Part shown: positions 39,640 through 50,339 of the stretch, piece by piece
Layout: every line of letters starts with the position of its first letter
Numbering within the stretch: the stretch's first letter is position 1
Assembly: GCA_017433825.1 (NCBI GenBank)
Contig: JAFRGL010000016.1
Location: 62,001 to 126,000 of the forward strand
DNA length: 64,000 nucleotides
Origin: Eubacterium sp.
GTDB lineage: Bacteria; Bacillota; Clostridia; Lachnospirales; Lachnospiraceae
Reading direction: 5' to 3'
Notes under the pieces: model-generated
The model's database searches: none
Seen by the model: only the letters and a program-made list of their open reading frames with translations
What the model was told of the DNA's origin: nothing
Made by a program: the position numbers and the translations under genes

Positions 39640-40527
39640 ATGGAGATTAAACAACTTAGAGCATTTATTGCCGCCGCCAGGTCATCGAGTTTCCTGAAAG
39701 CGGCGGACGAACTGTTCGTCTCCCGGCAGGCTTTAAGCAAAACCATAAGCCAGCTGGAAGCCGAACTGGGGCTGGAACTCTTTTCCCGAACCACGAAGGG
39801 TATCTTTCTTACTTCAGCCGGCGAATTCCTGTATCCCAGGGCCAGGGCCCTGGTCAATGAAATGGACAAGCTGAAGGCGGAAACCATGAACGTGGTCAAT
39901 GCCGCCCTTCCGGTCGTCCGTTTTGTTATGGTACAGGGTGCTTTCGGCATTTTTGCCGACAAGCTGGGTATGTATGCCTACCGCCACCGGGAAGAAATGG
40001 AGCTGAAGATGCGCAGCTGCCTGGATGTGGACTGCGATTCCGTTTTAAGCTCCGGCAAGGCGGACGCACTGATTTCCTTTACGCCCCCCAGCAACAGGAT
40101 AGCGAAGGCGGCTGTGCTCACCGTTTCCCCCTTAGCTTTCCTTATTAATAAGAACAATCCCGCCATCGACCAGGTGCGGGGCAATCCCGAGGCCCTCACC
40201 GCCCTGCCCAAGCTCCTGTATACAGGCGGCAGGGAGAAGTCCTTATGGTGGAAGGAATTTCCCGCAAGGAACGACATGGTCTGCGGGGACCTGGACTATA
40301 CCTTCCAGCTTCTGAACGAGGACAGGGGCATCCTGCCCATCCCGAAGCTTCTGATTCCGAAATACCTGGACTACGCGGAAGCCTACTACCCTTCCGCCAT
40401 GCAGGAATGGATTCCCTTATACTATTCTACGCTGAATGTGGAACATTACAATACGCAGTTATATAATATTATAGAAGAAATCCGCGGGGAGCTTCTGGCT
40501 GCGTCCGCGGAGGAAAGGACAGCATGA
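39640..40527 (+). CDS. LysR-type regulator divergent from the acs operon
   Basis: A 295-residue protein with the N-terminal winged helix (MEIKQLRAFIAAARSSSFLK, SRQALSKTISQLEAEL) and a C-terminal effector-binding domain. GAGGTG at 39628-39633 supports the ATG at 39640 rather than a GTG at 39610. Its stop overlaps the next gene by 4 bases (ATGA), so a Cys-rich small protein is translated with it. By position it probably controls acsD-acsB transcription; the ligand is unknown. Confidence 0.9.
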   Translation: MEIKQLRAFIAAARSSSFLKAADELFVSRQALSKTISQLEAELGLELFSRTTKGIFLTSAGEFLYPRARALVNEMDKLKAETMNVVNAALPVVRFVMVQGAFGIFADKLGMYAYRHREEMELKMRSCLDVDCDSVLSSGKADALISFTPPSNRIAKAAVLTVSPLAFLINKNNPAIDQVRGNPEALTALPKLLYTGGREKSLWWKEFPARNDMVCGDLDYTFQLLNEDRGILPIPKLLIPKYLDYAEAYYPSAMQEWIPLYYSTLNVEHYNTQLYNIIEEIRGELLAASAEERTA

Positions 40528-40865
40528 ACAGCAAGGATACCAAATACTACAGTTTTTTCCAGAATACAAAATGCGAATATTTCCCCTGCCACAAGATTGA
40601 AAACGTGGAGGAATTCAACTGTCTCTTCTGCTACTGCCCCCTGTACGCACTGGGGGAGAAATGCAGGGGCAATTTCACTTATACGGAAAAGGGGATAAAA
40701 AACTGCGTTGCCTGCAACATCCCCCATCGGGCGAAGAATTACGAATACATCCTCTCCCGTTTTCCGGAAATTGCCGAACTGGCAAAAAAGAAGGACGCCC
40801 TTGACGAAAATGATATCGGCAGCAGGTGTATTTACTGTACGCCTAAAAGCGAATTAAAAGATTGA
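40524..40865 (+). CDS. Cysteine-rich small-domain protein, 113 aa
   Basis: It matches the 'cysteine-rich small domain' family (FFQNTKCEYFPCHKIEN, FNCLFCYCPLY, KNCVACNIPHR), with ten or so cysteines likely to bind metal or an Fe-S cluster. The family tends to occur beside cobalamin and anaerobic corrinoid genes, and here it sits directly before the B12 riboswitch. Its start overlaps the lysR stop by 4 bases. It could be a redox- or metal-sensing partner of that regulator; no function is established. Confidence 0.75.
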   Translation: MNSKDTKYYSFFQNTKCEYFPCHKIENVEEFNCLFCYCPLYALGEKCRGNFTYTEKGIKNCVACNIPHRAKNYEYILSRFPEIAELAKKKDALDENDIGSRCIYCTPKSELKD

Positions 40866-40897
40866 TTTTCAGCATATTACATACTATAATTAGTTGA

Positions 40898-40993
40898 TCG
40901 AGGCTGTCTTCTCCGTTTTACGGAAGGCGGAAAGGGGTAAGAACCCGCGGGAAGGCCACTGTGCGGCAATATGCCAAGCCAGATACGTCTTTA
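40898..40993 (+). ncRNA. Cobalamin riboswitch
   Basis: The leader shows the landmarks of a B12 riboswitch in order: GGCGGAAAGGGGTAAGAACC, the core CGGGAAGGCCACTGTG and the B12 box region GCCAGATACGTC (about 40978-40989). The conserved GCCACTG and GCCAG-ATAC elements have their expected spacing. An intrinsic terminator follows about 60 bases on, ahead of the ribosome site of a DUF4430-like lipoprotein. Bound cobalamin is therefore expected to turn the downstream uptake operon off. The exact 5' boundary is uncertain. Confidence 0.85.
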
Positions 40994-41051
40994 GACAGTC
41001 TGATGTTTTCTGCCGGAACCGGAAAGCATCTTCTTAAACGGAAGAAAATGT

Positions 41052-41077
41052 CCCGGCTGAAGGCCGGGCTTTTTTTG
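41052..41077 (+). terminator. Terminator forming the riboswitch expression platform
   Basis: CCCGGC (41052-41057) pairs with GCCGGG (41063-41068), followed by CTTTTTTT. It lies between the riboswitch core and the first gene. Confidence 0.85.
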
Positions 41078-41121
41078 CACCATCCCGTAAGGGAAAACAT
41101 CCTAAAGGAGGATAATGAAAA

Positions 41122-41835
41122 ATGAAAAAATTATTTGCGATTGCAGCTGCAGCCGTACTGGCTTTCAGCCTTGCAGCCTGCTCCGGCGGCGGCGCGGATT
41201 CCGCAGGGGAATCTTCTGCAGCCAAGGAAGAAGGCACCAACGTCTATGTAACGATTGCCTGCGCGGGCGGACTGGTCGTCACCAGTGAACCTGTAGGCGT
41301 CATTGATACAGACGAAGACGGCGCCATTACCGTTCACGACGTTCTGGTCTGCGCCCATGAGAAGTTCTTCGAAGGCGGTGCAGCTGCCGGCTACGCAGAG
41401 GCGGAAACCGACTGGGGCACCTCCATCACCAAGCTCTGGGGCGATGAAAACGGCGGTTCCTATATGTACTACGTCAACAATTCCGGCGCCATGAGCCTTG
41501 CCGACCCGGTTGCTGCTGATGACTATGTTGCCGCTTTCAGTTTCGCCGACCTGGAAAGCTGGTCTGATGTTTACACCTATTTTGATTCCTTCCGCGCAAA
41601 GAACTCCGGAAGCATTGACCTTGTGATGAGCCAGGCCTCCTTTGATGAAGACTGGAACCCGGTTGAACTTCCCGTTGAAGGCGCCACCATCACCATTGAC
41701 GGTGCTCCCACCGAATTCGTAACAGACGCAAACGGTGCCGTAACCGTTACCCTTGAAGCGGGCAGCCACGTTATCAGCGCCACCGCACCGGACGGCATGA
41801 CCATCTGCCCGCCCTCCTGCGTAGTTACTGATTGA
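41122..41835 (+). CDS. DUF4430-like (transcobalamin beta-domain-like) lipoprotein
   Basis: First gene under the B12 riboswitch. It has a lipoprotein signal (AVLAFSLAACSGGG) and then a domain of about 120 residues with the DUF4430 pattern: an opening strand VYVTIACAGG, a middle ITVHDVLVCAHEKFF and a late MYYVNNSGA. DUF4430 is related to the C-terminal domain of animal transcobalamin. A C-terminal Ig-like domain (ATITIDGAPTEFVTDANGAV) follows. AAAGGAGG lies 10 bases before the ATG. Probably an outside B12-binding or docking protein for the ECF transporter downstream; cobamide binding is inferred from family and context. Confidence 0.7.
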   Translation: MKKLFAIAAAAVLAFSLAACSGGGADSAGESSAAKEEGTNVYVTIACAGGLVVTSEPVGVIDTDEDGAITVHDVLVCAHEKFFEGGAAAGYAEAETDWGTSITKLWGDENGGSYMYYVNNSGAMSLADPVAADDYVAAFSFADLESWSDVYTYFDSFRAKNSGSIDLVMSQASFDEDWNPVELPVEGATITIDGAPTEFVTDANGAVTVTLEAGSHVISATAPDGMTICPPSCVVTD

Positions 41836-41868
41836 TACATATCCGGCAGAATACAGAATTGATAATCC

Positions 41869-41903
41869 GCAGTCCATTGCCTGTTTTAAAGGCAATGGAC
41901 TGC
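41869..41903 (+). terminator. Perfect hairpin between the lipoprotein and the transcobalamin-like gene
   Basis: A 13-bp perfect stem, GCAGTCCATTGCC (41869-41881) with GGCAATGGACTGC (41891-41903). Only a short CTTTTAT follows a few bases on, so it may act as a partial terminator or mRNA stabiliser, letting the lipoprotein be made in excess of the membrane genes. Confidence 0.55.
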
Positions 41904-41927
41904 CATGTGCTTTTATAAAGGAATTAA

Positions 41928-43490
41928 ATGTCAATGAAAAAACTTCTCCGCATCCTGGCCGCAGCGCTTGTCTGTACGCTTCTTGGAACCTCCGCTGCAG
42001 CCTCAAGTGCCGATTATTCTGATAATTTACAGGAAGTCAAGGATACTATCCTGCAGAAAGTGACGGAAAGTTCCGGCACATCTTCCGTGCAGGACTGGCT
42101 TGACAATATTCTGGCCGCGAACCCGGGAACCGGAGAAGAATGGTATATTATCGCCATGCGCCAGTCTGACATGGAGCTGGATTATTCCGTATACCGCACT
42201 GCACTGGAGAAAAAGGTTTCGGAAGACCGTATCGTAAGCGCCACCTCCAGGCAGAGGATTGCCCTCTGCTTCCAGGCAATCGGCGGCGGTGAGGATTTTG
42301 TCGCTTCCACACTGAATGATTCCATCGGCAAACAAGGGCTGATGAGCTGGATTTACGGCCTTCACTTGCTGAAAAACGGCGGAAAAAGCGATGCAGTGAC
42401 CGAACAGGAAGTGCTGGACCGGCTCCTTTCCGAGCAGAAGGAAGACGGCGGCTGGTCAATCTTAGGCGACTACAGCGACGTGGACGTAACCGCTATGACC
42501 ATTTCCGCCCTGGCGGGATACCGGGATGACCCGGCCGTACAGGAAGCCATTGACAAAGGCCTTGCCCTCCTTTCCGAAAAACAGCTTGATGATGCCGGCT
42601 ATGCATCCATGGGCATCGTAAATCCCGAAAGCGCACTTCAGGTTTTATGTGCCTGTTCAAATAACGGCATTGACGCGCTTTCTGATTCCCGTTTTGTCAA
42701 AAACGGGCGTACTATTGTTGATTTTGTAAATGATTTCCGTACTTCAGAAGGCCTGTATTCCCACGACAAGGACGGCGAATACAATGCCGTTGCCACCGTC
42801 CAGGTCTTCTACTGCTTCACTGCATACCAGAGGATGCAGGCGGGCAGAAGCTCATTTTATGTTTTTGACGGCCCGCTTACCGAGGTTATGCGGAAGGCTT
42901 CACCCCGTATAAATGTGAAAGCCGTCCTGATGATTGTCATCATCGCCGCCCTGGCAGCCGCTATCATCTTGAATCTTAAAAAGGGACGGAAAAACTACAA
43001 GAATTATCTCTTCCCGGTCATTGTGGCTGTCATTGCCCTTCTGGCCGTCAATTTCATTAAAATCGAAAAGACTTCGGATTATTACGGCAGTAAAACCACT
43101 GCCGGTGATCATCCGGTTACCACATACATCACCATCCGCTGCGATACCATCAAGGATGAGGACAAGGATTATATTCCCAAGGACGGTATTATTCTGGACC
43201 GTACCCCTGTCGTCATCAACGACGGCAGCACCGCCTATGAGCAGCTGGTCTCTGCGGTGAAGGAATACAGCATCCAGATGGAAAACGAAGGCAGCAGCCG
43301 GCAGGCCTACATCTCCGGCATCAACTATATCTATGAATTCGATTTCGGGGATCTGTCCGGCTGGATGTTCTCCGTAAACGGTGAATTCGCCAACGTGGGC
43401 TGCGGCGAATTCAAGCTGCACGAAGGAGACGAGGTGCAGTGGCTTTACACCACCAATCTGGGAAAGGATCTGGGCATTGAGGAGTTTTAA
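41928..43490 (+). CDS. Membrane-anchored transcobalamin/intrinsic-factor-like protein
   Basis: A 520-residue protein in four parts. Residues 1-26 are a signal peptide. Residues about 35-305 form an alpha-alpha toroid of the prenyltransferase/terpene-cyclase and intrinsic-factor type, with the QKEDGGWS motif near 170. Two membrane helices follow at about 330-350 and 361-377, joined by a short basic loop KKGRKNYKN. Residues about 397-509 are a DUF4430 domain (VTTYITIRCD, GWMFSVNGEFANVGC). Animal B12 carriers join the same two domain types, alpha barrel and beta domain. Here a membrane hairpin separates them, putting both outside. The riboswitch upstream and ECF genes downstream support cobamide capture. 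Confidence 0.75.
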   Translation: MSMKKLLRILAAALVCTLLGTSAAASSADYSDNLQEVKDTILQKVTESSGTSSVQDWLDNILAANPGTGEEWYIIAMRQSDMELDYSVYRTALEKKVSEDRIVSATSRQRIALCFQAIGGGEDFVASTLNDSIGKQGLMSWIYGLHLLKNGGKSDAVTEQEVLDRLLSEQKEDGGWSILGDYSDVDVTAMTISALAGYRDDPAVQEAIDKGLALLSEKQLDDAGYASMGIVNPESALQVLCACSNNGIDALSDSRFVKNGRTIVDFVNDFRTSEGLYSHDKDGEYNAVATVQVFYCFTAYQRMQAGRSSFYVFDGPLTEVMRKASPRINVKAVLMIVIIAALAAAIILNLKKGRKNYKNYLFPVIVAVIALLAVNFIKIEKTSDYYGSKTTAGDHPVTTYITIRCDTIKDEDKDYIPKDGIILDRTPVVINDGSTAYEQLVSAVKEYSIQMENEGSSRQAYISGINYIYEFDFGDLSGWMFSVNGEFANVGCGEFKLHEGDEVQWLYTTNLGKDLGIEEF

Positions 43491-44355
43491 GGATTACAAT
43501 CCCATAGCGGTTTTCCTGTTTTTCCTGGGAGTCATCGTACCGTCCATGTTTATCATGGATCCGGTACTTCTTTGCATCTCCTTAGGCGGAGCCTGCGCCC
43601 TTCATTTCACCTTAAACGGCCGTTCCGGCTTCAAGGGCTTCTGGCTTTTCCCTGTGGTTGTGCTTGCAGGCCTTATCCTGAACCCCTTGTTCAACCACAA
43701 CGGCGCAACCGTCCTCTTCGTTCTGAACAACAATCCGGTAACCGCGGAAGCCGCCATGTACGGCCTGACCATGGGCATCATGATTTCCGGCGTCCTTCTG
43801 TGGTTCCGCTCTTTTACGCAGATAATGACCAGCGACAAGCTGCTGTATATTTTCGGTGCGGTATCCCCGAAGCTGGCCCTGATACTGTCCATGGTGCTCC
43901 GCTACATTCCCCTCTTCCGCCGGCAGATAACCAAAACGAATCAGGCACAGAAGGCCATGGGCCTTTACAAAGAGGAAAACACCATAGACAAGCTGAAAGG
44001 CGGCATGCGGATTTTCTCCGTCATGGTAACCTGGGCTTTGGAAAATGGCGTCATAACCGCCGACAGCATGACCGCCCGGGGTTATGGCGTAGGCAGGAGA
44101 AGCCAGTTTGCGCTTTTCAAATGGCGCAAAAGCGATAAAATCTTTCTGCTCGTCACGCTGGCCTGCGTGGGTGTAGTCATCTGGGCGATTTCCGCGAAAG
44201 CGGTCGGATACACCTTCTATCCGAAGCTCATTCCCACAAAAGCATCCGTCCCGGGCTTCTGCGGCTATATCGTCTACGCGGTACTGGCCGTCATCCCGGT
44301 ATTCATCACCGTCAAAGAGGTAAAGCAATGGCAATCCTTACAGTCAAAGATTTAA
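43477..44355 (+). CDS. ECF transporter T component (cobamide uptake)
   Basis: A polytopic membrane protein of about 292 residues, the energy-coupling scaffold between the two ATPase halves and the S component. It has hydrophobic helices and the coupling-helix region RYIPLFRRQITKTNQAQKAMG. The likely start is the TTG at 43477, with AAAGG upstream, inside the end of the previous gene, so the two overlap by 14 bases. It in turn overlaps the ATPase gene by 28 bases. It is distinct from the general EcfT encoded at 61.8 kb, so this is a dedicated transporter. Confidence 0.85.
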   Translation: MRSFKDYNPIAVFLFFLGVIVPSMFIMDPVLLCISLGGACALHFTLNGRSGFKGFWLFPVVVLAGLILNPLFNHNGATVLFVLNNNPVTAEAAMYGLTMGIMISGVLLWFRSFTQIMTSDKLLYIFGAVSPKLALILSMVLRYIPLFRRQITKTNQAQKAMGLYKEENTIDKLKGGMRIFSVMVTWALENGVITADSMTARGYGVGRRSQFALFKWRKSDKIFLLVTLACVGVVIWAISAKAVGYTFYPKLIPTKASVPGFCGYIVYAVLAVIPVFITVKEVKQWQSLQSKI

Positions 44356-45956
44356 ATTTCACATACGCGCTGGGGACAGGCCCTTCCCTCTCTGACATTT
44401 CCTTTTCACTGGATGAGGGGGATTTCTGCGTCATCTGCGGCGCTACGGGCAGCGGCAAATCCACGCTTTTAAAGATGCTCAAAAGGGAGCTTACCCCCAT
44501 GGGGGATCTCACCGGTGAGATCTGCATCGACGGTACGCCGGTTCAGGAGCTGGACGACCGCACCGCCGCTTCTTCCGTAGGCTTTGTCATGCAGCGGCCC
44601 GAACAGCAGCTGGTGACCGACAAGGTCTGGCATGAGCTGGCCTTCGGTCTGGAAAACCTGGGGGTTCCCACCAGCGTCATTCACCGCCGTGTGGCGGAAA
44701 TGGCCAGTTACTTCGGCATCGAGGACTGGTTTGAGAAACCGGTGGACGACCTTTCCGGCGGCCAGAAGCAGCTTTTGAACCTGGCCTCCATCATGGTCAT
44801 GCAGCCGAGAATCCTGATTCTGGACGAACCCACCAGCCAGCTGGATCCGGTGGCCGCCTCCGATTTCATCGCCACTGTCGGCCGTCTGAACCGGGAAATG
44901 GGCCTTACCGTGCTCATCGTGGAACACCGTCTGGAGGAGGCCATTCCCATCGCCAACCGTATGATGGCCATCGAAAAAGGCCGCATCATCAGCTTTGACA
45001 ACCCGCGGAAGGTCTGCGATACCTTAAGCACAAAGCCTGACCTTCTTCTGGCCATGCCCGCCGCGGTAAGGATCTACAATTCCTTCAACACCGGCGACGA
45101 CTGCCCCTTAACCGTGCAGGAGGGTTCCCGCTGGATCAGGAAACACTTTAAAAACGACATCAAAGCCCTCCCGGAAGAGCCTTATACCCACAGCGATGTG
45201 CCTGCCCTGGAGTTTGACGATGTATGGTTCCGCTACGGCAGGAATACGCCGGACATCCTGAAAGGCACCACGCTTACGGTTTACGAACATGAAATTTTCT
45301 GCATCCTGGGCGGCAACGGCAGCGGCAAAACCACAGCCGTATCCAATGCGGCCGCTTTGCTGAAGCCTTACAGCGGAAAGATCCGGGTGTTCGGCAAAGA
45401 GCTGAAGGACTACAAAGGCCAGGAGCTTTATAAGAACTGCCTGACGCTTCTGCCCCAGGACGTGCAGACCGTCTTCCTGCGCAACACTGTAAAGGAAGAA
45501 CTGGAGGACGCGAAAGCTTCCGCAGACATGCTGCCCTACGACCTGACGCCTCTTCTGGACCATCACCCCTATGACCTTTCCGGAGGCGAACAGCAGCTGC
45601 TTGCCCTGGCCAAAGCCCTGGCATCCCGGCCGAAGCTTCTGCTTCTGGACGAACCCACCAAGGGCCTGGATTCCTATGCCAGGAACGGTATCGTCAGCAT
45701 TTTAAAGAATCTCAGGGATGAAGGCATGACGCTGGTCATTGTCACCCACGACGTGGAATTTGCGTCGCTTATCGCCGACCGCTGCGCCATGTTCTTCCGC
45801 GGGGAAATCACCTCCCTGGATACGCCGCACACCTTCTTTGCGGAAAATAACTTCTATACCACCGCCGTTAACCGCATGACCCGGGGCTTTTACGAGAAAT
45901 GCATCACCGTACACGATGCCGTCGCCCTGGCCCGCATGCAGGAAGGAGGCGCCTGA
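44328..45956 (+). CDS. Fused double ATPase of the cobamide ECF transporter
   Basis: Two ABC ATPase domains in one 542-residue chain. Domain one has GATGSGKST, LSGGQKQLLN and ILILDEPTSQLD. Domain two (from about residue 290) has GGNGSGKTT, LSGGEQQLLA and LLLLDEPTKGLD. Both have intact Walker A, signature and Walker B elements. This replaces the separate EcfA1 and EcfA2 of the housekeeping system at the right end of the window. It overlaps the T gene upstream and shares one base with the S-component gene (TGATG). Confidence 0.92.
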   Translation: MAILTVKDLNFTYALGTGPSLSDISFSLDEGDFCVICGATGSGKSTLLKMLKRELTPMGDLTGEICIDGTPVQELDDRTAASSVGFVMQRPEQQLVTDKVWHELAFGLENLGVPTSVIHRRVAEMASYFGIEDWFEKPVDDLSGGQKQLLNLASIMVMQPRILILDEPTSQLDPVAASDFIATVGRLNREMGLTVLIVEHRLEEAIPIANRMMAIEKGRIISFDNPRKVCDTLSTKPDLLLAMPAAVRIYNSFNTGDDCPLTVQEGSRWIRKHFKNDIKALPEEPYTHSDVPALEFDDVWFRYGRNTPDILKGTTLTVYEHEIFCILGGNGSGKTTAVSNAAALLKPYSGKIRVFGKELKDYKGQELYKNCLTLLPQDVQTVFLRNTVKEELEDAKASADMLPYDLTPLLDHHPYDLSGGEQQLLALAKALASRPKLLLLDEPTKGLDSYARNGIVSILKNLRDEGMTLVIVTHDVEFASLIADRCAMFFRGEITSLDTPHTFFAENNFYTTAVNRMTRGFYEKCITVHDAVALARMQEGGA

Positions 45957-46654
45957 TGGTTGTCATTAAAAATGAAAAAGCACGCAGATTCCTGAAAATT
46001 GCCGTGCCCTTCATCTTTATCCCGGTTATTCTGTTTCTGGGCGTGTTCGCCTTCGATGAGAAGAAATTCGCCTGGATTATCCTGGCTGTAACCATCATGG
46101 CCCTGCTGCTCTTCTTCGCAGGCTTTGAAAAGAAGATCATCGGCACGAGAAGGATGGTCATTATCGCCGTGATGACGGCGCTTTCGGTCCTGGGCCGGTT
46201 TATCTTCGCAGTTATCCCCGGCTTCAAGCCCATCACCGCCATTGTGGTGATCACCGCAGTCTGGCTGGGACCGGAATCCGGCTTCCTTACCGGCGCGCTT
46301 TCCGCCGTCATCTCCAACTTCTATTTCGGGCAGGGGCCCTGGACGCCCTTCCAGATGTTTGCCTGGGGCATTATCGGCCTGGTTGCAGGTTACTTAAGCA
46401 ATATTCTGAAGAAGAACAGGCCCGCCCTGGCCGTGTACGGCGTATTTGCCGGTATCTTTTATTCCATGCTCATGGACGTCTGGTCCGTACTCTGGTTCAA
46501 CAACAATTTTGAAATGTCCGTATACCTGGCCGCCCTTGTGACAGCCATTCCCTATACGATATCCTATGCCGCTTCCAATGTCGTCTTCCTGCTCCTCTTA
46601 GGCCGTCCGTTCGGTGAAAAGCTGGAGCGGGTAAAACTGAAATACGGCGTCTGA
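45956..46654 (+). CDS. ECF transporter S component, probable cobamide-specific
   Basis: A 232-residue membrane protein. Two extra N-terminal helices (about 15-55) precede the six-helix ECF substrate-binding core that begins near RRMVIIAVMTALSVLGRF and contains TAVWLGPESGFLTGALSAVISNFYFG. The ATG overlaps the ATPase stop in TGATG. Specificity for cobalamin or cobinamide is inferred from the riboswitch, the transcobalamin-like protein and the following cob genes. Confidence 0.8.
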   Translation: MVVIKNEKARRFLKIAVPFIFIPVILFLGVFAFDEKKFAWIILAVTIMALLLFFAGFEKKIIGTRRMVIIAVMTALSVLGRFIFAVIPGFKPITAIVVITAVWLGPESGFLTGALSAVISNFYFGQGPWTPFQMFAWGIIGLVAGYLSNILKKNRPALAVYGVFAGIFYSMLMDVWSVLWFNNNFEMSVYLAALVTAIPYTISYAASNVVFLLLLGRPFGEKLERVKLKYGV

Positions 46655-46705: not shown

Positions 46706-47524
46706 ATGAAATTCTTAATCTCAACCATGTCCGACATCATTATGGACGAAGAAGACGGCAAGGACCCCATAATCACCTACAATGACAGTTCGCTGGAAGT
46801 TGCCCGGAAATACGGCTGCGGCATTGAAATCGCGGAATTCTGCATGAATGACAACCTGGATGATCATCTTGCGGAAGTCGAACCCGGAATCTGGCGCAAA
46901 GTCCGCGGGGTTGATTACGTTACGCTGCACGCCCCCTACAATGAGCTGTATCCTTCTGCCATCGATCCGAAATACGCGGATTTTGTGGCATCCCGCTACA
47001 GCCAGGCCCTGGAGGCCGCGGCAAAATACGGCGCGAAGAAGATCATCATTCACGCCGGCTACCTGTCCTCGGTTTATTTCAAATTTTTCTTCATCAACCA
47101 GTCCGTCAAATTCTGGAAAAGATTTCTGGAAAACCATCCGGGCGATTATGAAATCTGCCTGGAGAATGTAACTGAGCCGGATCCCTCCTTTATAATCCCG
47201 ATTATCGAGGGCGTAAACGATCCCAGGATGAAGGGCTGCTTCGACGTGGGTCATGCGAACCTTTTCGACTGTCCTCTGGACGACTGGCTTGACGCTTTCG
47301 CGCCGCACCTCTCCCACCTGCACATCCACAACAACAACGGCAGGCCGGACAACAATCCCTTAGGCGTGCTGGGCGATATCCATGCCCATCCCGGCAACGG
47401 TAAGATTGACATGGTGCATATTCTGGAACGGGTGAAGGAAATCAACCCGGACGCCACGCTCGCCATGGAAACCATGGACATCGAAAACGGTGCAAAATGG
47501 CTGAAGGACAACGGCTATCTTTAA
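46706..47524 (+). CDS. cbiR: CbiR-like cobamide-remodelling hydrolase (AP endonuclease 2 fold)
   Basis: A 272-residue TIM-barrel protein of the xylose isomerase / AP endonuclease 2 superfamily. Metal ligands are visible in LHAPYN, IIHAGY, CLENV, FDVGHAN, SHLHIHNN, DIHAHPG and AMETMD. General annotation would call it a sugar phosphate isomerase. Its place between a B12 importer and cobT-cobU-cobS, however, fits CbiR, the enzyme known from Akkermansia that hydrolyses imported cobamides so that a new lower ligand can be fitted. AAGGAGG precedes the start. The specific call rests on fold plus context. Confidence 0.65.
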   Translation: MKFLISTMSDIIMDEEDGKDPIITYNDSSLEVARKYGCGIEIAEFCMNDNLDDHLAEVEPGIWRKVRGVDYVTLHAPYNELYPSAIDPKYADFVASRYSQALEAAAKYGAKKIIIHAGYLSSVYFKFFFINQSVKFWKRFLENHPGDYEICLENVTEPDPSFIIPIIEGVNDPRMKGCFDVGHANLFDCPLDDWLDAFAPHLSHLHIHNNNGRPDNNPLGVLGDIHAHPGNGKIDMVHILERVKEINPDATLAMETMDIENGAKWLKDNGYL

Positions 47525-47552
47525 AAATAAAAAGAAAACAAGGTTGACTTAC

Positions 47553-48647
47553 ATGGAAAAACAGCTTGCGGAAATCTTAAATGCGATTCAGCCCGCCGAC
47601 GAAAAGGCGCGCATGCTTGCAAAAGAAAGACAGGAGAAGCTGGCCAAGCCTCCTGGAAGCCTGGGCAAACTGGAGGACATCTCCATCCAGCTGGCAGGCA
47701 TCACCGGAAAAGTAAAAAACCACATTGACAAAAAACGCATGATCGTCCTTTGCGCGGACAACGGCGTCGTGGAGGAAGGTGTTTCCTCCTCCCCTGTTTC
47801 CGTTACGGCAGCCCAGGCGGTGAACATGACCCGGCACAAAACCGGCATGTCCTCCATCGCCGCCGCTTCCGGATGTGAAATCCAGGTGGTGGATGTGGGC
47901 ATCAAATGCCCCTACGACTGTGACGCTGTCATCAATGCAAAGATTGCACCGGGCACGAAAAACCTGCATAAGGAACCGGCCATGACAAGGGAACAGGCAC
48001 TTACCGCCATCCTTACCGGTGTGCGTCTGGCCCGGCAGGCAAAGGAAGAAGGCGTGGATATCATCGGCATCGGGGAAATGGGCATCGGCAATACCACCAC
48101 TTCCTCTCTTGTGCTTATGTCTTTAACCGGTATTTCCGTGGAAGCAGCCACCGGCAGGGGCGGCGGCCTGACAGACGAGGCGTTTGCCTTAAAGAAACGC
48201 GTTATCCGGGAATCCCTGGAACTGCACAGGCCCGACTCTTCCGACGTGTTGGACGTGCTTTCCAAAGTCGGCGGCTTTGACATTGCCGCCATGTGCGGCG
48301 TCTTTCTGGGTGCGGCCCTGGAACGGATTCCGGCGGTCATCGACGGTTTTATCTCCGTGGTGGCAGCCTTAAGCGCCGTGAAGCTCTGCCCGGAAGTTAA
48401 AGCATACATTTTCCCCTCCCACGCTTCCTATGAGCCCGGCTACTCCGCCGCCATCGAAGCCCTGGGGCTTTCCCCCTGGCTGATGCTGAATATGCGGCTG
48501 GGGGAAGGCAGCGGCTGCCCGATAGCCTTTGCCGTTATCGAAGCGGCCTGCGCCGCCATGAACGATATGGCGCTTTTCGGGGAAGAATCGGAAATCGATG
48601 ATTCCTACCTGGACGATATCCGCGGAAAGGACAGCTTCAGCATATGA
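47553..48647 (+). CDS. cobT: Nicotinate-nucleotide-dimethylbenzimidazole phosphoribosyltransferase
   Basis: Activates the lower-ligand base to its alpha-ribotide for cobamide assembly. The family motifs PPGSLGKLE (near the start), GIGEMGIGNTTT and MRLGEGSGC are intact. An in-frame TTG lies three codons upstream, but AAGG placed 9 bases before the ATG at 47553 favours that start (364 residues). It overlaps cobU by 4 bases. No genes for making a lower-ligand base are seen here, so the base is probably scavenged. Confidence 0.95.
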   Translation: MEKQLAEILNAIQPADEKARMLAKERQEKLAKPPGSLGKLEDISIQLAGITGKVKNHIDKKRMIVLCADNGVVEEGVSSSPVSVTAAQAVNMTRHKTGMSSIAAASGCEIQVVDVGIKCPYDCDAVINAKIAPGTKNLHKEPAMTREQALTAILTGVRLARQAKEEGVDIIGIGEMGIGNTTTSSLVLMSLTGISVEAATGRGGGLTDEAFALKKRVIRESLELHRPDSSDVLDVLSKVGGFDIAAMCGVFLGAALERIPAVIDGFISVVAALSAVKLCPEVKAYIFPSHASYEPGYSAAIEALGLSPWLMLNMRLGEGSGCPIAFAVIEAACAAMNDMALFGEESEIDDSYLDDIRGKDSFSI

Positions 48648-49183
48648 AAATACTTCTCTCAGGGGGCTGTAAAAACGGTAAATCCACCCTTGCCGAAGAC
48701 TGCGCGGTTAAGCTTTCAGAAAGCGGCGGCGGGCTGTATTATATTGCCACCATGATCCCCCACGACGACGAAGACTTCGTCCGGATTGAACGTCATATCG
48801 CCAACCGGGCCGGCAAAGGCTTCACCACTCTGGAACAGGGTATGAACCTGCCTGACTGCGTTACGGAAGAAAATGCGTGCGGCACCTTCCTCCTGGACTC
48901 TGTGACCGCCCTTCTGACGAATGAAATGTATCATGACGGCATTTATGAAAAAGACGCGCCGGACAAGGTAGTCCAGGACCTTCTTGCCTTTGCGGAAAAA
49001 GTGGAAAACGCGGTATTCGTCAGCGATTTCATCTATTCCAGCGCGGAACAGTACAGTGTTTTTACCGAAGAATACCGGGAAGGACTGGCCCGCTGCGACA
49101 AAGCCCTGGCGCAGATCTGCGATGCGGTCTGTGAGGTCTGCACCGGCTGTATTACCATGTATAAAGGGGAACTTCCGATATGA
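48644..49183 (+). CDS. cobU: Adenosylcobinamide kinase / guanylyltransferase
   Basis: Phosphorylates adenosylcobinamide and then attaches GMP, giving AdoCbi-GDP. The P-loop is SGGCKNGKST (about residues 6-15) and the guanylylated histidine is expected in RIERHIANRAG (near 47). At 179 residues it has full family length. It starts inside the cobT stop (ATGA) and ends the same way in cobS. A second, shorter CobU-like protein is encoded two genes on. Confidence 0.92.
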   Translation: MKILLSGGCKNGKSTLAEDCAVKLSESGGGLYYIATMIPHDDEDFVRIERHIANRAGKGFTTLEQGMNLPDCVTEENACGTFLLDSVTALLTNEMYHDGIYEKDAPDKVVQDLLAFAEKVENAVFVSDFIYSSAEQYSVFTEEYREGLARCDKALAQICDAVCEVCTGCITMYKGELPI

Positions 49184-49917
49184 TACCTTTTTTCATGGCC
49201 TGGGGCATGTTCTTCATGATTCCCTGTCCGTATAAAAAATGGGATTCGTCCAAATATCCCCAGATGCTGAACTTCCTGCCCGCCGTCGGGCTGATGTGCG
49301 GCATCCTGCATGCACTGGCCGCCTTTATCCTGGCGAAGCTTTCCGCCGGGCTTATAGGCGGAGGCATCCTGGCCGTGCTTCCCTGGATTCTCACCGGCTT
49401 CATCCATCTGGACGGCTATATGGACTGCGCTGACGCAGTACTCTCCCGCCGGGAAAAAGAAGAAAGGCTGCGGATTTTAAAGGATTCCCACGTAGGATCC
49501 TTTGCCGTCATCATGATGGTGGTCCTGGGCATTCTCCAGTTTGCCGCCTGCGCAAATTTCTCCCTCTCCGGAAGGGAATACTTCGCCCTGGCCCTCATAC
49601 CGGTTGTTTCAAGGAGCTGCACCTCCGCGGCGGTCCTGAATCTCGCGCCCCTGCCCACCAGCTCCTATGCGAAGATGTTCAGGAAAGGTACGCCGCCTCT
49701 TCTGAAACTGATTCCGCTGATTGTTACTGCGGCAGCTGCCGTCATCGCCCCGGTCCTGTGCGGCAGGAAAGGACTGTGTGTTCTTTTCGGCATTATCGGC
49801 TACCTGCTCACCCTTCTGTATATAAAAAGCGATTTAGGAGGCATGTCCGGTGATATCTCGGGTGCGTCCATTACGCTTTCAGAGCTTGTTGCTTTCTGCG
49901 CGCTGGCACTTTTATAA
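49180..49917 (+). CDS. cobS: Cobalamin synthase (adenosylcobinamide-GDP ribazoletransferase)
   Basis: An integral membrane enzyme that joins AdoCbi-GDP to the alpha-ribotide. The conserved acidic motif HLDGYMDCADAVLSRR is present near residue 86, followed by KDSHVGSFAV. Several hydrophobic helices span the 245 residues. It overlaps cobU by 4 bases. With cobT, cobU and cobC it completes nucleotide-loop assembly. Confidence 0.95.
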   Translation: MIPFFMAWGMFFMIPCPYKKWDSSKYPQMLNFLPAVGLMCGILHALAAFILAKLSAGLIGGGILAVLPWILTGFIHLDGYMDCADAVLSRREKEERLRILKDSHVGSFAVIMMVVLGILQFAACANFSLSGREYFALALIPVVSRSCTSAAVLNLAPLPTSSYAKMFRKGTPPLLKLIPLIVTAAAAVIAPVLCGRKGLCVLFGIIGYLLTLLYIKSDLGGMSGDISGASITLSELVAFCALALL

Positions 49918-49976: not shown

Positions 49977-50339
49977 ATGCATTTCATTATCGGCGGAGCC
50001 TATCAGGGCAAAGTTGACTATGCAAAAGAAGAATTTCATTTAAAAGATGGCGACATTTACACCTGCAGCAGGGATTCGGCACCGGATTTTTCCGCTCCCT
50101 GCCTGAACCACTTTGAAAACTACATCCTGTACTGCATGCGTCAGGGCACCGCGGACTATACCGCGCATCTGTCCGCTGACGCAATCGTAATCGCGGATGA
50201 TATTTTCTGCGGCGTAGTGCCGGTGGATGAGGAAACAAGGGCATGGAGGGAGGAATGCGGCCGCGCGTTTACCGCCATCGCGAAAGAGGCGGAAACGGTC
50301 ACCCGGCTGTTTGTCGGAATACCGAGGAGGCTGAAATAA
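49977..50339 (+). CDS. Short CobU-like protein with an altered P-loop, 120 aa
   Basis: The C-terminal half follows the CobU end pattern: IADDIFCGVVPVDEETRAWREECGRAF, then VTRLFVGIPRRLK. The N-terminus MHFIIGGAYQGKVDYA is in the P-loop position, but the residue after GK is Val instead of Ser/Thr. The guanylylation-histidine region of full CobU proteins is shortened or missing. Its stop is directly followed by the cobC ATG. It may be a nucleotide- or cobinamide-binding regulatory paralogue, or a decaying duplicate, but the intact frame and operon position argue for use. Confidence 0.7.
   Translation: MHFIIGGAYQGKVDYAKEEFHLKDGDIYTCSRDSAPDFSAPCLNHFENYILYCMRQGTADYTAHLSADAIVIADDIFCGVVPVDEETRAWREECGRAFTAIAKEAETVTRLFVGIPRRLK

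Follow-up and report, generated by a model that had tools for sequence, protein, structure and literature searches.

This analysis concerns five genes in a 64,000-nucleotide stretch of DNA from Eubacterium sp. (contig JAFRGL010000016.1, positions 62,001 to 126,000), the whole of which is called the window here. The genes lie on the forward strand between positions 41122 and 46654, and they probably make up an operon for the capture and import of cobamides, in which a membrane-anchored clamp composed of an alpha-alpha toroid and a DUF4430 domain would feed a CbrT-like S component of an energy-coupling factor (ECF) transporter. All five open reading frames listed in an earlier note on this DNA were found where it had placed them. 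Its description of a dedicated cobamide uptake operon also agrees with our annotation, as the S component is nearest to CbrT, the operons of relatives have riboswitch leaders, and genes for CobT, CobU, CobS and a CbiR-like protein follow downstream.

The fused protein and the importer

The second gene (41928..43490) encodes a protein of 520 residues consisting of a signal peptide, an alpha-alpha toroid (about 31-320), a membrane hairpin (330-379) and a DUF4430 domain (433-508). The DUF4430 domain (PF14478) was identified with Pfam at an E-value of 4.5e-17 and is found in all 75 rows of the alignment of the fused-protein family. The 520-residue sequence alone gives a weak toroid signal (Prenyltrans, E 0.0049 in Pfam), which becomes clear at the level of the family, whose profile matches a squalene-hopene-type cyclase chain with E 1.8e-17; of the 75 family members, 37 have a match to SQHop_cyclase_C and 29 to Prenyltrans. 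Three hydrophobic segments occur in the protein, namely the signal peptide (6-24) and two segments between the domains (330-348 and 361-379), the latter joined by the basic loop NLKKGRKNYKNY. Exactly two interdomain segments were observed in each of 72 fused relatives, and the loop between them is net positive in all 72, with a mean charge of +3.8 compared to about 0 and -1.5 on the outer flanks. Under the positive-inside rule, a two-helix hairpin with a positive loop places both of its ends outside the cell, so the toroid and the DUF4430 domain should both face outward. The earlier note had proposed this architecture; its DUF4430 domain, its hairpin and, by hydropathy and charge, the outward position of both domains were supported, while its toroid was recovered with confidence only through the family.

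The three genes downstream supply the parts of an ECF transporter, a T component, two ATPase domains and an S component, and the transporter with a fused double ATPase described in the earlier note is confirmed by family profiles. The T component is CbiQ-like (43381..44355, forward strand; PF02361, E 3.2e-6), its real start being uncertain and near 43480. It is followed by an ECF ATPase of 542 residues with two fused domains (44328..45956, forward strand), recognised by two ABC_tran stretches and by TIGR04520 above its cut-off, and by the S component (45956..46654, forward strand). The nearest solved chain to the S component is 6fnp_A (CbrT), with E 1.1e-11 from the single sequence. A profile of its family (27 sequences) matches the same chain with E 1.8e-16, the next chain being 4hzu_S with 0.0011. 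The structure 6FNP is the ECF-CbrT complex of Lactobacillus delbrueckii, for which transport of cobalamin and cobinamide was demonstrated (PMC5997447). This homology marks the transporter as a B12-type importer. The similarity to CbrT starts near residue 60 and is preceded by two additional hydrophobic segments (window 45956-46140), which are present in 26 of the 27 family sequences at a hydropathy threshold of 1.5. In several other loci (L038, L040, L041, L042, L046, L048, L049, L050, L052 and L143, and also in genome G879) the double ECF ATPase and the S component were seen in a single frame of 807 to 982 residues.

The first gene (41122..41835, forward strand) encodes a secreted lipoprotein of 237 residues with an N-terminal domain and a C-terminal CarboxypepD_reg/prealbumin-like domain, the latter under the Pfam cut-off. 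It had been called DUF4430-like, an assignment that we have dropped, as none of 34 family members matches DUF4430 (E ≤0.01) and a comparison of the family profile with DUF4430 domains gave a probability of 2.1%. A loose lipobox pattern occurs in only 15 of 65 related open reading frames, hence lipid anchoring is not general in this family.

Conservation, gene fusion and leader RNAs

The 520-residue protein was matched (E ≤1e-5) in 106 of 392 sampled genomes of the order, often through one domain alone. A set of 19 loci was taken from 18 other genomes of the same order, chosen among the better matches to this protein. Genes for the T component, the ATPase (A) and a CbrT-like S component lie close by in 18 of the 19 loci, and the remaining locus has a CbiR-like gene; within this set, homologues do not occur mostly away from cobamide genes, a possibility that the earlier note had wanted checked. 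A larger set comprises the best 80 of 190 relatives found using four fused proteins as queries, many of them labelled as Clostridia from herbivore guts. Frames were delimited from stop to stop, so that starts and lengths are upper bounds. Two pairs of these loci (L034/L132 and L035/L117) are probably each one contig under two labels, and the family alignment contains both members of the second pair.

Toroid and DUF4430 share one reading frame in 72 of the 80 loci, a proportion that partly reflects selection since the queries were themselves fused. In 57 of the 72 fused loci, the gene immediately 3' of the fused one encodes a homologue of the T component, and a rule-based assignment places a lipoprotein homologue immediately 5' in 49. 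Same-strand homologues of T, A and S were found in 63, 58 and 57 of these loci respectively, with 16 of the 72 having less than 3.5 kb of downstream sequence. The operon is real and conserved in both content and order. Very large frames (1,474 to 2,726 residues), probably surface proteins, with extra toroid and/or DUF4430 parts were seen before the ECF genes in five loci (L041, L048, L049, L050 and L052).

The 19-locus set gives a different picture of the fusion, as the two parts are joined as in the window in only three loci and are separate genes in the other sixteen. Among these split loci, the adjacent DUF4430 protein starts with a hydrophobic segment in fifteen, and in six the toroid frame has such a segment close to its end at the hydropathy threshold used. 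A hairpin is thus the expected product of gene fusion in such loci, although not every toroid gene has a tail helix. In a tree of 106 DUF4430 domains (75 fused and 31 split) we counted four changes between the fused and split states, at least three of them forced by supported branches, compared to 27 with shuffled labels; this count is rough as many forks are unresolved and the bootstrap is unsettled. The tree excludes fused frames of at least 800 residues, DUF4430 matches that cover fewer than 85 residues or are weaker than 1e-12, as well as identical domains. Given the separate genes and the repeated fusion or splitting, toroid and DUF4430 act like a single unit, which suggests that they cooperate.

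Nine of 18 loci in other genomes of the order, and 12 of 20 loci of the 80-locus set, have a cobalamin riboswitch that reaches the gathering score of RF00174. A model built from ten short RF00174 hits (R1) was then applied to 72 of the 80 loci (omitting L095, L114, L115, L119, L121, L122, L129 and L130) and detected an element in 51, every one on the operon strand. Seven of the 51 are sources of the model, and L132 probably counts as an eighth, which leaves 43 matches in 64 loci that are independent of it. Distances were measured in 49 of the 51 loci (L098 and L133 lack the fusion). In 46 of them the end of the element is at the first detected frame or no more than 600 bases away from it, and in the other three it is 1.1 to 1.3 kb before that frame. 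The earlier note had proposed a search for toroid and DUF4430 proteins with two membrane helices beside B12 riboswitches; 72 of the 80 relatives are fused, with two helices each between the domains, and most of the operons examined are preceded by a riboswitch. Two tandem riboswitch-like elements, the second of them weak (26 bits), were seen before one operon at L062:7362-7663.

The leader of the window itself belongs to a divergent group. The earlier note had named it a cobalamin riboswitch; Rfam does not recognise it as such, and what stands is a candidate aptamer of cobalamin-riboswitch type at 40900..41005 on the forward strand, based on conservation in a congener, on matches of a second model (R2) and on covariation. 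The core of this element is kept in L141, the sole one of six congeners that matches the 520-residue protein (E ≤1e-20). The R2 model, built from the window, L141 and an element of another genus (L152), was searched against 813 kb in 50 loci. Its top match (5.9e-7) precedes a second cluster with DUF4430 in the host's own genome, and further matches land exactly on known riboswitch places of L082 (E 0.002) and L034/L132 (E 0.35), where the layouts agree by eye. Two more matches (1.7 and 4.1) look like chance. These matches tie the leader group only weakly to known cobalamin riboswitches.

Across 299 genomes of the phylum, R2 found nine places in seven genomes. Toroid, DUF4430 or ECF genes follow four of the eight places outside the window (G879, G704, G678 and contig C6 of the same genome, the last after two regulator genes), and the remaining places, read by eye, stand ahead of surface proteins, a permease and an ABC transporter, the weakest (G811) being probably a chance match. 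A pattern search for the leader type yielded a related element in one of the 299 genomes (G536), which is followed by a protein of 2,272 residues with no toroid or DUF4430 match, and a corrected pattern matched only the host's own genome among 383. A sequence-only nhmmer profile left the window leader undetected, and the elements of L141, L053 (contig C6) and L167-L172 do not reach the RF00174 gathering score.

Eleven elements, including the three R2 source sequences, were aligned by fitting them to the structure. The closing stem shows changes on both sides in all eight pairs, and the covariation score of the group is 0.631 compared to 0.199 for shuffled and 0.10-0.15 for slid alignments. Together with the window element, the members include L053:1105-1237, L167:11031-11144, L168:2977-3086, L169:2878-2989, L170:8403-8523 and L171:3108-3220. 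We read the group as candidate divergent cobalamin-type riboswitches. Between the aptamer and the first gene, the sequence contains an intrinsic-terminator-like hairpin with a T run (41052..41076, forward strand). This hairpin is predicted to fold whether the closing stem of the aptamer is present or blocked, with pair probabilities of 0.80-1.0, and no antiterminator/terminator switch was seen on in-silico folding of the window leader.

As an observation in its own right, the group consists of short riboswitch-like RNAs with strong covariation that are probably of the cobalamin type and are missed at the Rfam gathering score. The second cluster on contig C6 (about 1-30 kb; L053 and L156) contains a DUF4430 protein, toroid proteins with a terminal hydrophobic segment and a transglutaminase-core protein; it is preceded by a window-type leader and a histidine kinase gene, and no T, A or S match was seen there. 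A further window-type leader at C4:133107-133219 (L171) stands before what reads by eye as an oligopeptide/nickel-type ABC transporter, which could serve cobalt uptake.

Proposed mechanism and alternatives

In the mechanism that we propose, the two-helix hairpin would hold the toroid and the DUF4430 domain side by side outside the cell, where they would clamp a cobamide in the way that these domain types do in transcobalamin and intrinsic factor of animals. The clamp would pass the cobamide to the adjacent CbrT-like S component in the membrane, and the fused double ATPase together with the T component would drive import. When cobamide is abundant, the leader of cobalamin-riboswitch type would lower expression of the operon, and the imported cobamides would probably be remodelled by the CbiR-like, CobT, CobU and CobS products. 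B12 as the ligand of the toroid and DUF4430 pair, and the geometry of the clamp, are suggested by analogy with the animal carriers. We infer the hand-over through contact of the hairpin with the two additional S helices, the ligand and switching of the leader, and the remodelling. It is also possible, if somewhat doubtful, that the pair is a standing subunit of the ECF transporter, its hairpin packing on the two extra S helices and its clamp loading S directly, that it has been split and fused repeatedly, and that it stands partly under a riboswitch group missed by Rfam.

Several results weigh against this mechanism. Concerning the leader, RF00174 has no match in the window at the gathering score and none at E ≤5 in 40500-41960; in the host's own genome it has none at the leader at E ≤10 (150 of 231 first-look candidates scored). 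The R1 model does not detect the window leader, and R2 recovers only 3 of the 47 loci having an RF00174 or R1 element, two of the three being probably one contig, and misses 44. Concerning the fused protein, its listed sequence and profile matches include no solved chain of intrinsic factor or transcobalamin, and its toroid finds its best matches among solved chains, by sequence, in class II terpene cyclases. ECF-CbrT of L. delbrueckii is active in B12 transport when purified and placed in liposomes (PMC5997447), which means that a CbrT-like S component can work without a toroid/DUF4430 partner. Finally, scavenging is not forced on the host, because its genome contains a corrin-pathway gene cluster.

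This cluster, on contig C7, has matches to CbiC, CobQ, CbiA, CbiJ/E/T (one chain), CbiH, CbiG, CbiF, CbiL, CbiD and CobD, with CbiC above the Pfam cut-off and CbiG and CobD under the curated cut-offs. The idea that the host must scavenge B12 was dropped on this ground, and an inability to make corrin rings probably does not explain the presence of the operon. The genes that adjoin the importer on the forward strand point elsewhere. They encode a CbiR-like TIM-barrel protein with a possible role in cobamide remodelling (46706..47524; NF041277, 37.7 bits, under the cut-off of 105), CobT (47544..48647; TIGR03160, 408 bits, above the cut-off), a CobU-like protein (48644..49183; PF02283, E 7e-26) and CobS (49180..49917; PF02654, E 6e-41), and they favour the remodelling of foreign cobamides or the recovery of lost ones. 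Salvage or remodelling is, judging from these genes, the more likely role and fits better than plain scavenging. A short CobU-like gene of 120 residues (49977-50339, forward strand), in which only the C-terminal part of the family is matched, completes the row. Around the operon, some genes were read by eye as Wood-Ljungdahl and methyltransferase genes, which are heavy corrinoid users.

CbrT was reported to bind B12 and cobinamide and, together with the ECF module, to transport both (PMC5997447), and this would also suit an operon that imports cobamides with S alone binding B12, the toroid and DUF4430 parts instead fishing cobamides from proteins, debris or polymers, or docking large surface proteins. 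Several sister operons encode very large proteins, probably of the cell surface, that contain additional toroid and DUF4430 parts, and these would agree with such a role. We nevertheless consider it unlikely, as it is the fused protein that stays constant, with the T gene directly 3' of it in the majority of fused loci counted above, and as the same pair of domain types, an SLBB-type domain and an N-terminal toroid, sandwiches B12 in the crystal structure described for transcobalamin (PMC1796856).

The clamp might alternatively hold another tetrapyrrole or a metal compound, with riboswitch control matching cobalt or tetrapyrrole supply. Burroughs et al. conceded a broader ligand range for the clade (PMC1796856), and the leader-group member before the apparent oligopeptide/nickel-type transporter would be in keeping with it; the wide gap between CbrT and the next chain in the S profile matches, and the CobT, CobU, CobS and CbiR-like genes downstream, make this reading quite improbable. 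Class II terpene cyclases carry a DxDD acid motif. That the toroid is an active terpene-cyclase/prenyltransferase-like enzyme lying near B12 genes by accident is hardly credible in spite of its best solved-chain matches, as the motif is incomplete and reads DxDV in the family (D184 in 71, D186 in 75 and V187 in 73 of 75 rows), signal peptide and charge place the toroid outside the cell, and ECF genes accompany it. The earlier note had asked whether the toroid is a true prenyltransferase with an intact site, and these findings answer it in part only: the alignment is best to terpene cyclases, and the acid motif is not intact.

Relation to known systems

The preferred reading, a membrane-anchored clamp feeding a CbrT-like importer, is not new in its core idea, since Burroughs et al. 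predicted in 2007 that bacterial proteins combining a toroid with an SLBB domain, encoded beside CbiO/CbiQ genes, are B12 scavengers (PMC1796856). These proteins were described as secreted or attached to the surface, frequently accompanied by another SLBB protein at the surface, with a beta-hairpin insert after the helix as a trait of the family, and as belonging to bacteria that usually lack key B12 enzymes; a transfer of such proteins to animals from Gram-positive bacteria was also proposed (PMC1796856). The 520-residue protein has the toroid and DUF4430 fusion of such scavengers, the toroid being recognised via the family profile. As in those systems, a toroid is fused to a domain of the transcobalamin C-terminal type, a second surface protein is common, and CbiO-like and CbiQ-like genes stand in the operon. 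In contrast to them, the domains here flank a membrane hairpin, a layout that the excerpts of that paper do not mention, the S component is CbrT-like with two extra helices, and the riboswitches were mapped. The host also differs from the usual hosts, whose lack of key B12 enzymes is a common though not a universal trait, in having CbiC and nine further corrin-pathway genes on contig C7. Among the matches listed in the open-access literature we found no experimental test of the bacterial toroid and SLBB scavengers. As far as we have seen, what is new is a widely conserved layout with a hairpin, an S component of CbrT type that carries additional helices, a map of the riboswitches including the group missed by Rfam, and the presence of the system beside corrin genes.

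The operon is like ECF-CbrT of L. delbrueckii (PMC5997447, PDB 6FNP) in having a homologous S component, a T component and two ATPase domains, and it differs in having its own fused ATPase in the operon, the two additional S segments and an extracellular toroid/DUF4430 partner. If the proposed mechanism is true, the design would be unusual among transporters, as an extracellular binding module would belong to the ECF importer itself. The B12-binding lipoproteins of Bacteroides have unrelated domains and work with outer-membrane transport of the TonB type. Such surface lipoproteins bind B12 (PMC6143338), and the operon would resemble them in capturing B12 at the surface. It would share with BtuF-BtuCD an extracytoplasmic capture step that hands over to an ATP-driven importer, whereas in BtuF-BtuCD the binding protein is periplasmic and the permease is not of the ECF type (PMC5997447).

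The tie to the animal carriers rests on the type and order of the domains, given the toroid/DUF4430 sandwich of B12 and the DUF4430 domain reported at the C-terminus of transcobalamin (PMC4350170). The same two domain types occur in the same order in intrinsic factor, transcobalamin and haptocorrin, to which no sequence match was found. These animal proteins are soluble and are not known to have a membrane hairpin, unlike the bacterial protein described here. As a uniform candidate system, the operon lends itself to direct tests on two soluble domains and one transporter. B12 binding by the pair would make it a living bacterial equivalent of the B12 carriers of animals and would bear on their proposed Gram-positive origin (PMC1796856).

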